Source of the DNA: Bacillota bacterium
GTDB lineage: Bacteria > Bacillota > Clostridia > Oscillospirales > Acutalibacteraceae
Reading direction: 5' to 3'
NCBI GenBank assembly: GCA_029005175.1
Contig: JAQXFQ010000032.1
Location: 1 to 35,107 of the forward strand
DNA length: 35,107 nt
Part shown: one piece after another, positions 9,169 to 16,038 of the stretch
Layout: every line of letters begins with the position of its first letter
Numbering within the stretch: the first letter of the stretch is position 1
Notes under the pieces: model-generated
What the model saw: the letters and a program-made list of their open reading frames with translations, nothing else
What the model was told of the DNA's origin: nothing
Database searches by the model: none
Position numbers and translations under genes: made by a program

Positions 9169-9300
9169 AATATTTGCCTTAACCCCCTCATCTCTCGGCG
9201 CATTTGCCGCAGGAATTGGCACCTTACCCAACTAAAAAATTGGCAGGTTGCCGGACTTCACAGGGCCTGAACCCTCCGTCACTCTTGATAAGGAAATATT
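9169..9300 (-). ncRNA. SAM-I (S-box) riboswitch
   Basis: Minus strand CTTATCAAGAGTGACGGAGGGTTCAGGCCCTGTGAAGTCCGGCAACC ... GGTGCCAATTCCTGCGGC ... GAGAGATGAG matches the S-box consensus. P1 closes with AATATTTCCTTA / TAAGGCAAATATT. Confidence 0.97.
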
Positions 9301-11255: not shown

Positions 11256-11531
11256 TTATTCTTCTTTCATCTTTGCAAAGCACTCGCTGCAGTAAACAGG
11301 ACGACCCTCGCTGGGCTTAAAGGGAACCTTTGCTTCGCCGCCGCAGGAGGCACATGTCGCTGTGTACATCTCGTGCTGCTGCTTACCTGCATTCTTTCTT
11401 GCTGTGCGGCACTCTTTGCAACGCTGCGGTTCATTTTCAAAGCCCTTGCTTGCATAGAATTCCTGCTCGCCTGCTGTGAATACAAATTCATTACCGCAGT
11501 CTTTGCATCTGAGAGTTTTGTCTTCGTACAT
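11256..11531 (-). CDS. Small zinc-ribbon protein (91 aa)
   Basis: CKDCGNEFVFTAGEQEFYASKGFENEPQRCKECR ... CASCGGEAKVPFKPSEGRPVYCSECF: four CxxC pairs. ATG at 11531. Confidence 0.85.
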   Translation of the reverse strand: MYEDKTLRCKDCGNEFVFTAGEQEFYASKGFENEPQRCKECRTARKNAGKQQHEMYTATCASCGGEAKVPFKPSEGRPVYCSECFAKMKEE

Positions 11532-11564
11532 TGTAATAACCTCGCTTTTGAGAAAATAAATGAT

Positions 11565-11642
11565 TGCCCCAGAGCGGAATTGCACCGCTACCTTTGCAAA
11601 AAATACAATTGCAACGCTTCTGTTTAATTAAGCTACAAGGAC
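11565..11642 (-). ncRNA. Degenerate tRNA-like element (possible tRNA pseudogene or tRNA-like leader)
   Basis: Minus-strand cloverleaf: acceptor GTCCTTG/CTGGGGC (two G-U, one U-U), D arm GCTT/AAGC, anticodon-like arm TTGCAA-TTGTATTTT-TTGCAA (9-nt loop), 4-nt variable region, T arm AGCGG-TGCAATT-CCGCT, discriminator-like A, no encoded CCA. Confidence 0.55.
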
Positions 11643-11688: not shown

Positions 11689-12285
11689 TCACCGTAACGA
11701 TTTCATTTTTTGCCTTACTCTTTGAATCGCATTATCTACTGACTTTACCCCTATGCCGAGCTTATCGGCCGTTTCTTCGTAAGAATAACCGCAGATGCGC
11801 ATATTAAGCACATTTTTTTCCAGATCGGTCAGACTAAGCGAAATTTTGTCCATCAATCTGTCAAAGCTGTCACTCTCTGCCATAAATTCCTGCGGATCTC
11901 CCGAAGCACCCGACAAACCATATGAAACCACACTGCCCGAAATTTCCGAATCATTAAGTTCCTTATGATCATTAAGCGGCTGATTTTTATGACTCACATA
12001 AGAACGCACCGCCGAAATCAATACATTCTCCACACAAGTTTCAACATACGTTCTGAATTCTGCACCCTTGGAGGGATCATAGCTTTTCACGGCATTCAGC
12101 AGACCGATAGCTGCCTCCTGACACAAATCATCCACTATATCACACCCGCAAAGCCGGCTTTTAGCCACAGCCATAGAATGAATCAGTGAACTGTATCGTC
12201 CAAAAAGGCAGGCAAAAGCTGATTGATCACCGGAAACGGCAAGGCTTATAAGTTCATTGTCCGACTTATCCGACAGATAATTCAT
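11689..12285 (-). CDS. RNA polymerase sigma-70 family factor (SigH-like)
   Basis: Region 2 (DLCQEAAIGLLNAVKSYDPSKGAEFRTYVETCVENVLISAVR) and region 4 HTH (LTDLEKNVLNMRICGYSYEETADKLGIGVKSVDNAIQRVRQKMK). Confidence 0.88.
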   Translation of the reverse strand: MNYLSDKSDNELISLAVSGDQSAFACLFGRYSSLIHSMAVAKSRLCGCDIVDDLCQEAAIGLLNAVKSYDPSKGAEFRTYVETCVENVLISAVRSYVSHKNQPLNDHKELNDSEISGSVVSYGLSGASGDPQEFMAESDSFDRLMDKISLSLTDLEKNVLNMRICGYSYEETADKLGIGVKSVDNAIQRVRQKMKSLR

Positions 12286-12443: not shown

Positions 12444-13823
12444 TTATCTTTTGTTATCAACCTGATTTTTGACCTCGGCCATAACATTTGAGGCTATTTT
12501 TCCCGCAACAGCCTTTCCGCTTCCTCCATTCTGCACACACACCACAAAGGCATACGGATATTTTTCATTCTGACAGAACCCGGCAAACCATGCATGTGAT
12601 TTCTGATTTCCGTCAAGCTCTGCCGTACCTGTTTTAGCACAAAATTCCATTCCCTCAGGATAATTTTTATCATTGTAGCCGTTTGTCACATTAAAGCGCA
12701 TCATCTTCGCAAGGGTGTTGGCAGTGTATTCGCTCAGGCAGCGTGTAGTGTTTTTATTAAGCATAAATGATGTGCGCATTCCACCTGACGTAGTAATTTT
12801 TTTCACTAAATACGGTTCCTGAACCACACCGCCGTTGGCAATCGCACCGACATAACGCATCATTGCAAACGGGTTAACTTCATCTGTGTGCTGACCGATT
12901 CCCGTCCATGCCAGCTCATTTTTCTCGCCCGATGTCGGGATACTCCCCTTTATCGTTTTGATTCCGCTCACGTCATGACTTTGGGTTATACCGGCTTTTT
13001 GAGCATATGCGGTCATATTTTCCCAGCCGACAAGCACTGATATTTCAGCAAATGCAACATTGCAGGAGTTTTTGAGTGCCTGTTGAAAATTCTGTTTGCC
13101 GTGTGTACCCGAGCACTTAATGGTTTGACCGTTAACAACTGTTTCACCCTTACAAGTAAATGTACGTTCAAATATATCATCGACAGTGTCAATAGCTGCC
13201 GCAGAAGTAATCAGCTTATAAACTGAACCCGGCGTGAATTTTGATGAAAGCAGGCGGTTGATATAAACTCCGTCGTACGCATTATCTCCCGACTGGATTT
13301 TTGGGGGATTTTCGGGGTCATAGGTCGGTGTGCTCACCAGACAGATTATTTCCCCCGTCTTGTAATTGTAAACCCCGACTGTGCCTTTCTTTCCCTTAAG
13401 CTGCTGATATGCCGCGGCACATACATCAGAATTTAAAGTGGTGTAAAGCTTTTTGCCGGTGCCGTCTACAGAGTACATACCGTTGATAAGGTTATACCCC
13501 ATAAGCTCATCGGCATATACTTTTTGCAGCGATGTGGAAATATTACTTTTTTTATCGCCGATTATATGCATTGTAGCACATCTTACATTTTTGTTTTCAC
13601 TGTATTTTCTTTTACCGTCAACCGTGTGAACCAACGGTTCTCCGTTGCTGTCATAGATTGCCCCGCCTATAAGCACTCCGTTAGAATATATGTGTTTATT
13701 TGCGGAAAAATTCACCCAGTCATTGCCCTCAGTAAAAAATCGGAATGTAAAATAACTAACCCCTATCATGAGAGCCAATATAATAACCAACACGCTCCAC
13801 GCGCGGTTACGAACTTTTTTCAT
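12444..13823 (-). CDS. Penicillin-binding protein, PbpA-like D,D-transpeptidase
   Basis: TPGSVYK (SxxK), SCN (SxN) and KTGTAE; single N-terminal TM and short non-catalytic N-domain like actinobacterial PbpA. Confidence 0.92.
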   Translation of the reverse strand: MKKVRNRAWSVLVIILALMIGVSYFTFRFFTEGNDWVNFSANKHIYSNGVLIGGAIYDSNGEPLVHTVDGKRKYSENKNVRCATMHIIGDKKSNISTSLQKVYADELMGYNLINGMYSVDGTGKKLYTTLNSDVCAAAYQQLKGKKGTVGVYNYKTGEIICLVSTPTYDPENPPKIQSGDNAYDGVYINRLLSSKFTPGSVYKLITSAAAIDTVDDIFERTFTCKGETVVNGQTIKCSGTHGKQNFQQALKNSCNVAFAEISVLVGWENMTAYAQKAGITQSHDVSGIKTIKGSIPTSGEKNELAWTGIGQHTDEVNPFAMMRYVGAIANGGVVQEPYLVKKITTSGGMRTSFMLNKNTTRCLSEYTANTLAKMMRFNVTNGYNDKNYPEGMEFCAKTGTAELDGNQKSHAWFAGFCQNEKYPYAFVVCVQNGGSGKAVAGKIASNVMAEVKNQVDNKR

Positions 13824-13848: not shown

Positions 13849-16038
13849 TCAATATCTGCGTCTTTTGCCGATATAGGAATCTCCATCATCGGCATTGTCA
13901 AATGCATCCGTATATTTACCTGTAAGCACACTGTCTGACTGGTTCGGTTCCGAATTTGTGCGTGACAAATCATTTTTCGCATTATCCTGCGAAGGTTCGG
14001 AATGCATTTTATCCTGTGAATTTGTGTTGGCATTTGTGCGCTCATTCTCAAGCTTTTCCGATTCGTTGACATTGTAATTTTCAGTATAGTCAATATTCTC
14101 CACGGGCTTTATTACACCTGCATCAATCAATTTGATTCTTATTCTTTCGGCAATCTGTCCCAGCTTGCTGAAATCATATTCACTGCGCCCGATTTTATTT
14201 TCAACAGCAGGCTCAGCCGCCGAAAAATTCGCTGCCGATGAAACCTCTCCGCCCTGTATGCGAACCTTGAAGCTCTCACGGGCGGCTGCAAAGCTGGCAT
14301 TTCGACGAGTGTCGGCCGCCTTGACAAACGCCAGCAGCCCCCATGACGAAAGCATACTTGAGCCGCCGTTGGATACAAACGGAAATGTAACGCCTGTGAG
14401 CGGAAGCAAATCAACCGAGCCAAGAGTATTAAGAATAGTCTGAACCACCATCATGGTCACAGCCGCGCAAGCCGCAATTACATAAAACGAAGAACGGGCA
14501 TTTGCAGCACTTTTGACCGTAAAAGCCGCCAATGCACATATGGCGATTACGGAAATTAAAGCTATTATGATTCCCCATTCCTCACAAACTACGCCAAACA
14601 CCAGATCGGTGTCGGCCGCCACGACATTTCTCAGCCAGCCGTTTCCCACGCCAACTCCGAAGACACCGCCACTTGCCGCCGCCGACATTGTGCGGGTCTG
14701 CTGATAGCCGGAATCATACGCATGCTCCCATGCATGCCCCCAAACGGCAAATCTGCGTGCAACATACGGCTTGAATTTTATAACCAGCATTATTCCGAAT
14801 ACAACTGTGGCGCATATGAGCGCAATTGTGGCAAAATCTCCCGAACGCATGAAGGCTATCACGATGAATGCAGCGAAAAATATCGCCGCAGTGCCAAAAT
14901 CCCCCATCAGTGCCAATGCACCTATGCAAACGCCGGAGAATCCGATGAAGTAAGCCAGATTTTTTCGTGTGAGCAGAATGTCAAGCGTTGCTGCGCCGAT
15001 AAACACGAATGCGATTTTGACAATTTCTGACGGCTGCAGAGAGATGCCGCCTAACGAGATCCAGTTTTTCGCACCGTTTATTGTCTTACCGAATATTAAA
15101 TTGAAAAACAGCAGTCCGACTGCAAATATCATAACGTACAGCTTCACAGACATTGCGCGCTTGAGATCGCGGAGAAAACAGCCAATCAGCACAAACAGCC
15201 CAAAGCCAAGTAAGAATGCAAAAAATTGTTTATAAAGCTCGCCCGGATCAGAGGATGCCGCCACGGAAAATCCTATGGTCGACAAGAAAAAAGCAAGCAT
15301 TTCCACCTCAATTCCGGTTTTGACCAATATGCGCATCACAGCATAATAACCCCACAGCAGTACGCAAAGACCGCCAAAGCACACGAAAACTGATGTTTTA
15401 TCCACCACACCGCCGGAAATTAATTCCGCAGCGGCCAAGAACATAAACAGACTGAGCAAAATCAAGGTATGCACAGGGCGAAGTATACGCGCTACCTTTT
15501 TATTTGTATCTTTTTGAGAGCGGCTTTGGCGTGTCACCAGAAATTTAGCCTTAACGTCGGAAAACATGAGTGTACTTCCCGCAGCAACTGCCGCAGTTCC
15601 GTTTACGGGTTTCCCGTTAAGGGTAACTCCGCCCTTTGAATCAAAATCCGAAATAGTCCAACGCTTATTCTCGTCGCGTATCAGCACGGCATGTGAGCGT
15701 GAAATCGTAGGGTAATCTATCACAATATCACTTGACGATGAGCGTCCGATTGTGTTTTCCCAATGGCTTACGGGAATTCTGCCGAAGCCCTCTACATCAA
15801 GATACGCCCATATTTCAGGAGCTTCATGACCGGAAAGCATAGATTTCATGCAGCGCGACAATATAATTATGGCCATAACAGGTATAATAAGCCGCGCAAA
15901 AAATGTTATTCCACCCACAGAATCAAAAATGCCCGAAAGCAAAGTCCAAAGTTCGCCTGCAAACGAATCGTTTTGAGCTGTCATATTAAACGTAATAATC
16001 GCCCGCCTTCCTATGTAATCAAATAAAATTCCTATCAA
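13849..16038 (-). CDS. FHA domain - SEDS (FtsW/RodA/SpoVE) fusion protein
   Basis: FHA core GRSSSSDIVIDYPTISRSHAVL...DFDSKGGVTLNGKPV, followed by FtsW/RodA membrane domain (GAKNWISLGGISLQPSEIVKIAFV, LPLTGVTFPFVSNGGSSMLSSWGLLAFV). Confidence 0.92.
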   Translation of the reverse strand: MIGILFDYIGRRAIITFNMTAQNDSFAGELWTLLSGIFDSVGGITFFARLIIPVMAIIILSRCMKSMLSGHEAPEIWAYLDVEGFGRIPVSHWENTIGRSSSSDIVIDYPTISRSHAVLIRDENKRWTISDFDSKGGVTLNGKPVNGTAAVAAGSTLMFSDVKAKFLVTRQSRSQKDTNKKVARILRPVHTLILLSLFMFLAAAELISGGVVDKTSVFVCFGGLCVLLWGYYAVMRILVKTGIEVEMLAFFLSTIGFSVAASSDPGELYKQFFAFLLGFGLFVLIGCFLRDLKRAMSVKLYVMIFAVGLLFFNLIFGKTINGAKNWISLGGISLQPSEIVKIAFVFIGAATLDILLTRKNLAYFIGFSGVCIGALALMGDFGTAAIFFAAFIVIAFMRSGDFATIALICATVVFGIMLVIKFKPYVARRFAVWGHAWEHAYDSGYQQTRTMSAAASGGVFGVGVGNGWLRNVVAADTDLVFGVVCEEWGIIIALISVIAICALAAFTVKSAANARSSFYVIAACAAVTMMVVQTILNTLGSVDLLPLTGVTFPFVSNGGSSMLSSWGLLAFVKAADTRRNASFAAARESFKVRIQGGEVSSAANFSAAEPAVENKIGRSEYDFSKLGQIAERIRIKLIDAGVIKPVENIDYTENYNVNESEKLENERTNANTNSQDKMHSEPSQDNAKNDLSRTNSEPNQSDSVLTGKYTDAFDNADDGDSYIGKRRRY

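Follow-up and report, generated by a model that had tools for sequence, protein, structure and literature searches.

We identified a 78-nt element with the fold of a tRNA ahead of the small zinc-finger gene zf_Tbcl, on the minus strand of the window, i.e., the complete 35,107-nt stretch of DNA analyzed here. Sequence comparisons make it very probable that this element is of tRNA ancestry, that selection acts on its fold, elbow included, and that it is linked in cis to zf_Tbcl, exclusively and at an even spacing. On balance, the best explanation as a whole, including a role in translation, appears to be that the element is an exapted tRNA, which goes back to the tRNA-Thr(GGT) gene at the SigH-like locus and now serves as a cis leader. 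We favor this reading because of the parent locus, the intermediates, the covariation, and the zf_Tbcl linkage described below. No published description of the element was found in the literature searched, outside of which lie most subscription journals.

The initial annotation had proposed a full cloverleaf on the minus strand, departing in several respects from a translating tRNA, and every arm is present at 11565–11642. The acceptor stem spans seven positions, with the 5′ strand GTCCTTG (11636–11642) pairing with the 3′ strand CTGGGGC (11566–11572) except at one U-U mismatch (U6-U67); some of its pairs are G-U. It is followed by the U8-A9 linker (11634–11635), each base of which is kept in 89 of 90 relatives, and by a 4-bp D arm, GCTT AATTAAACAG AAGC (11616–11633). 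The anticodon-like arm, TTGCAA TTGTATTTT TTGCAA (11594–11614), has a 6-bp stem, and the variable region AGGT (11590–11593) separates it from a 5-bp T arm, AGCGG TGCAATT CCGCT (11573–11589), in which T54 and A58 are invariant among relatives. The departures had also been described correctly: the anticodon-like loop is 9 nt long, the D loop lacks the GG pair (the window copy apparently has no G19), the T loop (UGCAAUU) carries G at position 55, and the discriminator A at 11565 is not followed by an encoded CCA.

As the annotation had suggested, the minus strand was compared with the Rfam tRNA model (RF00005), which scored the element at 37.9 bits against a gathering cut-off of 29 (E 1.4e-6; 401 bp scanned); four relatives also clear this cut-off unaided (36.5–37.5 bits). 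When the whole window was scanned with Rfam, the element was missed by the fast filter. ARAGORN called the window copy as tRNA-Tyr(gta). A translating tRNA was nevertheless rejected, since the element passes the Rfam cut-off yet has no usable 7-nt anticodon loop on a 5-bp stem, and the window copy lacks both G18G19 and T55C56. Folded alone, the window copy does not adopt the cloverleaf as its minimum free-energy structure (−18.1 kcal/mol, versus −21.7 kcal/mol for the best fold) and its folding z-score is only −1.34; the case therefore rests on conservation and comparison rather than on folding energy.

The element lies, as had been noted, between a SigH-like gene and the start codon of the zinc-finger gene. 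The SigH-like sigma factor gene (11689–12285, minus strand; Sigma70_r2/r4) is 46 nt upstream of the element, and its best NCBIfam matches are SigH-type models, with scores below their cut-offs. The zf_Tbcl gene (11256–11531, minus strand) begins with an ATG at 11531, 33 nt beyond the end of the element, and encodes a 91-aa protein with two CxxC zinc fingers (PF13451 and PF23477, i.e., zf_Tbcl and zf_Tbcl_2; TIGR04272). Its Shine-Dalgarno region, AAGCGAGG (11540–11547, minus strand), is conserved as AAGYGAGG, a motif that also precedes some zf_Tbcl genes whose leaders are unrelated. Searches of the PDB with the zinc-finger protein, by sequence and by fold, returned no useful relative of this small and highly conserved protein. 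Elsewhere in the window, a SAM riboswitch (RF00162, 82.4 bits; 9185–9294, minus strand) precedes an S-adenosylmethionine synthetase gene, and a single open frame at 13849–16038 (minus strand) fuses an FHA domain with an FtsW/RodA/SpoVE protein, beside the gene for a penicillin-binding transpeptidase (12444–13823).

Outside the SigH-like locus, zf_Tbcl was found directly behind raiA RNA (RF03072, 179–186 bits) in L156 and L162, and also in L143 and L170; in L156 and L162 it is followed by a ribosome-hibernation factor gene of the S30AE family. The zf_Tbcl leader, and the fact that zf_Tbcl is sometimes flanked by raiA RNA and a hibernation-factor gene, hint at a role for the protein near the ribosome. 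Two more groups of zf_Tbcl leaders (L144, L147, and L148; L152, L159, and L167) have conserved, structured-looking sequence and may be unknown leaders; no Rfam family matched the upstream regions scanned (L144, L147, L148, and L152).

To place the element in context, we collected the 80 nearest related zf_Tbcl loci. In most of them, the motif GCCC..GUAGCUUA..AGAGCGUUG..CAAAGGUG.CGGUGCAA.UCCG.C..GGGCA lies ahead of the start codon. A covariance model built from 45 relative sequences (R1) scores the window copy at 62.1 bits and reaches at least 48 bits in 62 of the 80 loci; the annotation had suggested looking for the same element ahead of zinc-ribbon homologs. Cultivable relatives with the element include Caproiciproducens and Pseudoruminococcus. 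A strong match is absent in about one in five of these near loci, and some shortened variants score 12–27 bits. The shortened elements have a different D arm or lack the anticodon arm (L013, L025, L038, L048, L016, and L044), and in L006 and L014 a single GC-rich hairpin occupies the element's place; this series suggests stepwise reduction of the element.

The linkage was quantified by searching 147 genomes of the window's order with R1, with zf_Tbcl starts located independently by protein search. There were 69 matches at E ≤ 1e-10, 58 of which have a zf_Tbcl start 23–43 nt downstream, while two further matches precede zf_Tbcl at contig ends. The remaining nine are of ordinary tRNA length and, where checked, are tRNA-Asp or tRNA-Arg. 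Hence all 60 matches of non-ordinary tRNA length sit just ahead of zf_Tbcl. The distance from element to ATG is 31 ± 4 nt, whereas the gap to the sigma factor gene varies from overlap up to hundreds of nucleotides. In three loci (L017, L021, and L041), no sigma factor gene was found upstream, and the element is kept behind its own promoter-like sequence, as read by eye.

Covariation and synteny in relatives had been named beforehand as tests of a functional RNA, and both were found. In the model-fitted alignment, compensatory changes occur in 16 of 20 pairs, with 108 compensatory cells compared to 44 ± 5 in shuffled alignments and at most 28 when the partners were slid, a comparison from which shared ancestry is not fully removed. 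A plain MAFFT alignment yielded 11 pairs and 46 cells, versus 26 ± 4 in shuffles. For example, the anticodon-like stem changes from UUG/CAA to CUA/UAG in L017 and L021. Among 2016 ranked column pairs, 12 of the top 14 are model pairs or nearly so; under a home-made tree-based null, one pair only reaches E < 0.05 individually. RNAalifold recovered the D and T arms and nothing else from the MAFFT alignment, because MAFFT misplaces the 3′ strand of the acceptor stem.

The contacts that shape the tRNA core are also preserved. The U8-A14 contact is kept in 89 of 90 relatives and T54-A58 in all 90. When all D-loop by T-loop column pairs were compared, the strongest Watson-Crick covariation (z 5.5) fell on the equivalent of the tRNA elbow contact 19-56. 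This pair is formed in 57 of 89 sequences against 38.5 expected, with shared ancestry not fully removed from the figure, and occurs as all four Watson-Crick types (46 G-C, 7 A-U, 3 U-A, and 1 C-G). Other features are looser: the D-loop GG and T55 are often lost, with mostly one G or none, though some relatives keep them; two positions of the acceptor stem are often unpaired or otherwise interrupted; and the anticodon-like arm varies widely in stem and loop length and is therefore not a decoding arm. Judged from these comparisons, the fold of the element, elbow contact included, is under selection and is neither a chance structure nor a dead pseudogene.

The origin of the element could be traced by extending the R1 search across the class. 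Where zf_Tbcl is absent, the strongest matches are genuine tRNA genes; 18 were examined, and every one proved to be tRNA-Thr(GGT), in most cases right after tRNA-Gly(CCC). Each of them also follows the same SigH-like gene, with tuf next in most. The parent cluster of other Clostridia thus reads SigH-like gene, tRNA-Gly(CCC) where present, tRNA-Thr(GGT), and tuf, and the element loci read SigH-like gene, tRNA-Gly(CCC) where present, element, and zf_Tbcl. In three genomes with further tRNA matches, tRNA-Thr(GGT) exceeds the next tRNA by 9–13 bits (54.5 versus 41.3 in G187, 54.8 versus 44.2 in G371, and 53.8 versus 44.5 in G215). The top matches in other Bacillota classes are again mostly tRNA-Thr(GGT), mostly beside a SigH-like gene. 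Intermediates are also found: tRNA-Gly(CCC) lies directly upstream of the element in L119, L134, L138, L150, L151, and L165, and a canonical UUCAA T loop together with the D-loop GG is kept in L119, L126, L134, and L138. A rough tree built on the shared arms places 19 of 20 elements closest to the Thr(GGT) isotype, although this tree comes from a short alignment, carries no support values, and over-samples Thr(GGT).

The simplest history would begin with the order SigH-like gene, tRNA-Gly, tRNA-Thr, and tuf. The zf_Tbcl gene would then have come to lie behind tRNA-Thr, which would have become the zf_Tbcl leader with loss of its anticodon and CCA, and tRNA-Gly would finally have been lost in the window's order; we infer the order of these steps. 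Of the readings first offered, a decayed tRNA was right as to ancestry, given the relation to tRNA-Thr(GGT) at the SigH-like locus, but "decayed" does not describe the element today, since selection acts on its structure. In gut Clostridia, a tRNA gene would have been put to new use in gene control, something of which clear examples are rare. The origin of riboswitches and leaders is seldom visible; in this instance the parent tRNA, the syntenic slot, and the intermediates all occur in living genomes, and the passage from tRNA to leader is therefore traceable and can be tested step by step. A hidden class comes into view as well: by score its members look like poor or pseudo tRNAs, or the filters miss them, and annotation may easily drop them or give them the wrong name.

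We propose that the 5′ region of the zf_Tbcl cistron holds the element as a leader with the shape of a tRNA, in most loci placed between this cistron and that of the sigma factor. Ending some 31 nt short of the start codon, with the Shine-Dalgarno region close behind it, the folded element would set zf_Tbcl translation by presenting its tRNA-like elbow to the initiating ribosome or to a tRNA-binding factor. Precedent comes from tRNAs grafted in cis upstream of a Shine-Dalgarno sequence, which raised translation 2- to 6.3-fold in vitro in a manner that depended on the tertiary fold and not the ACCA end (PMC9142559). By analogy with these grafted leaders and with yjdF, action on zf_Tbcl translation through the elbow is a credible possibility, if one we would put at just short of even, and the preservation of core and elbow at a fixed distance from the start codon would fit such a mechanism. 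Control is most likely post-transcriptional, because the Shine-Dalgarno region is well kept and no terminator-like site was found in the gap between element and start codon. We looked for conserved pairing of the element with the Shine-Dalgarno region as an off switch and found none; the element holds just ~14% of the Shine-Dalgarno pairing probability. No built-in off state is therefore visible, and the element may instead enhance expression constitutively or be under the control of a protein. Overall, the mRNA leader that had been offered among the original readings is the one supported, by its exclusive, regularly spaced association with zf_Tbcl, its covariation, and its retention after relocation.

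The main rival is that the element acts as RNA-processing punctuation, where RNase P and/or RNase Z would cleave it, part the two cistrons, and define the 5′ end of the zf_Tbcl mRNA. This would fit the intercistronic position, mostly 5–35 nt from the sigma stop codon, and the derivation from a tRNA within a tRNA cluster. RNase P recognizes the tRNA elbow and T arm, and these are the parts preserved. However, the relocated loci weaken this explanation, as the element persists there without an upstream sigma cistron; CCA has been lost, the acceptor stem is often interrupted, and punctuation has no need of a tight spacing to the start codon. The processing signal put forward in the annotation thus retains some probability but is disfavored as the whole story, and we consider it unlikely.

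Slightly less likely still, in our view, is a regulated switch in which a ligand, a tRNA-binding protein, or zf_Tbcl itself (by feedback) alters zf_Tbcl expression. The loops and junction are highly conserved, yjdF illustrates how a tRNA fold can turn into a small-molecule riboswitch, raiA RNA provides another structured leader ahead of some zf_Tbcl genes elsewhere, and the protein has two zinc fingers. Yet there is no alternative Shine-Dalgarno pairing, the short gap contains no terminator, the gene offers no clue to a ligand, and the fold search gave no informative relative. It is very improbable that the element works in trans as a small RNA, or is an odd tRNA, and lies before zf_Tbcl by chance: some copies in family f47 are very tRNA-like and placed after tRNA-Gly, but the anticodon arm can be of any length, CCA is absent, and the zf_Tbcl linkage is exclusive and fixed in spacing. 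Chance hairpins or a dead tRNA pseudogene, to which the weak folding z-score of the window copy might point, are hardly credible in light of conservation, covariation, and synteny over tens of genera.

The element was also compared with known systems. Only RF00005 scores significantly on it, with no such match to the T-box model or to another Rfam leader or riboswitch, and a string reminiscent of cobalamin riboswitches, GGTGCAANTCC, merely reflects T-loop resemblance. The parent elongator tRNA-Thr(GGT) shares with the element its sequence, cloverleaf, and place behind the SigH-like gene and tRNA-Gly(CCC); in contrast, the element has no working anticodon arm or CCA, an interrupted acceptor stem, an altered D loop and position 55, and zf_Tbcl rather than tuf as its neighbor. 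Some aminoacyl-tRNA synthetase mRNAs, e.g., E. coli thrS, carry tRNA-mimicking operators that bind the encoded synthetase. These are likewise tRNA-like leaders near a start codon, but zf_Tbcl is no synthetase. The raiA RNA (RF03072) also precedes zf_Tbcl in other Clostridia; it is ~210 nt long, is unrelated to the element in structure, and has been reported as trans-acting in C. difficile (PMC11706538).

The yjdF riboswitch comes closest: it is homologous to tRNA-Lys, its tRNA-like fold increases translation, and >97% of its members conserve the D-loop GG (PMC9142559). Both RNAs have a tRNA-homologous four-way junction, a D-loop/T-loop contact, and a place just upstream of the start of the gene concerned. 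However, yjdF has an extended purine-rich J1/2 ligand pocket where the element has a conserved two-base UA linker, its near-universal D-loop GG is mostly absent from the element, and its T-loop/P4 pairs with the Shine-Dalgarno sequence in the off state, for which no equivalent was seen here. The two also differ in the gene they precede, and the element has an origin that can be traced to a particular locus, that of tRNA-Thr(GGT). The Rfam yjdF model (RF01764) gave no match up to E 10 in the 401 bp around the element. That a neighboring protein gene captured an entire tRNA gene, which became, by way of traceable intermediates, a switchable translation element, turning its elbow (with the 19-56 contact preserved by compensatory changes) toward the ribosome or a tRNA-binding factor and forming a second, independently arisen tRNA-based riboregulator after yjdF, is a tentative proposal that leans to the doubtful side. 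The element is not a yjdF riboswitch and, at most, works like one.
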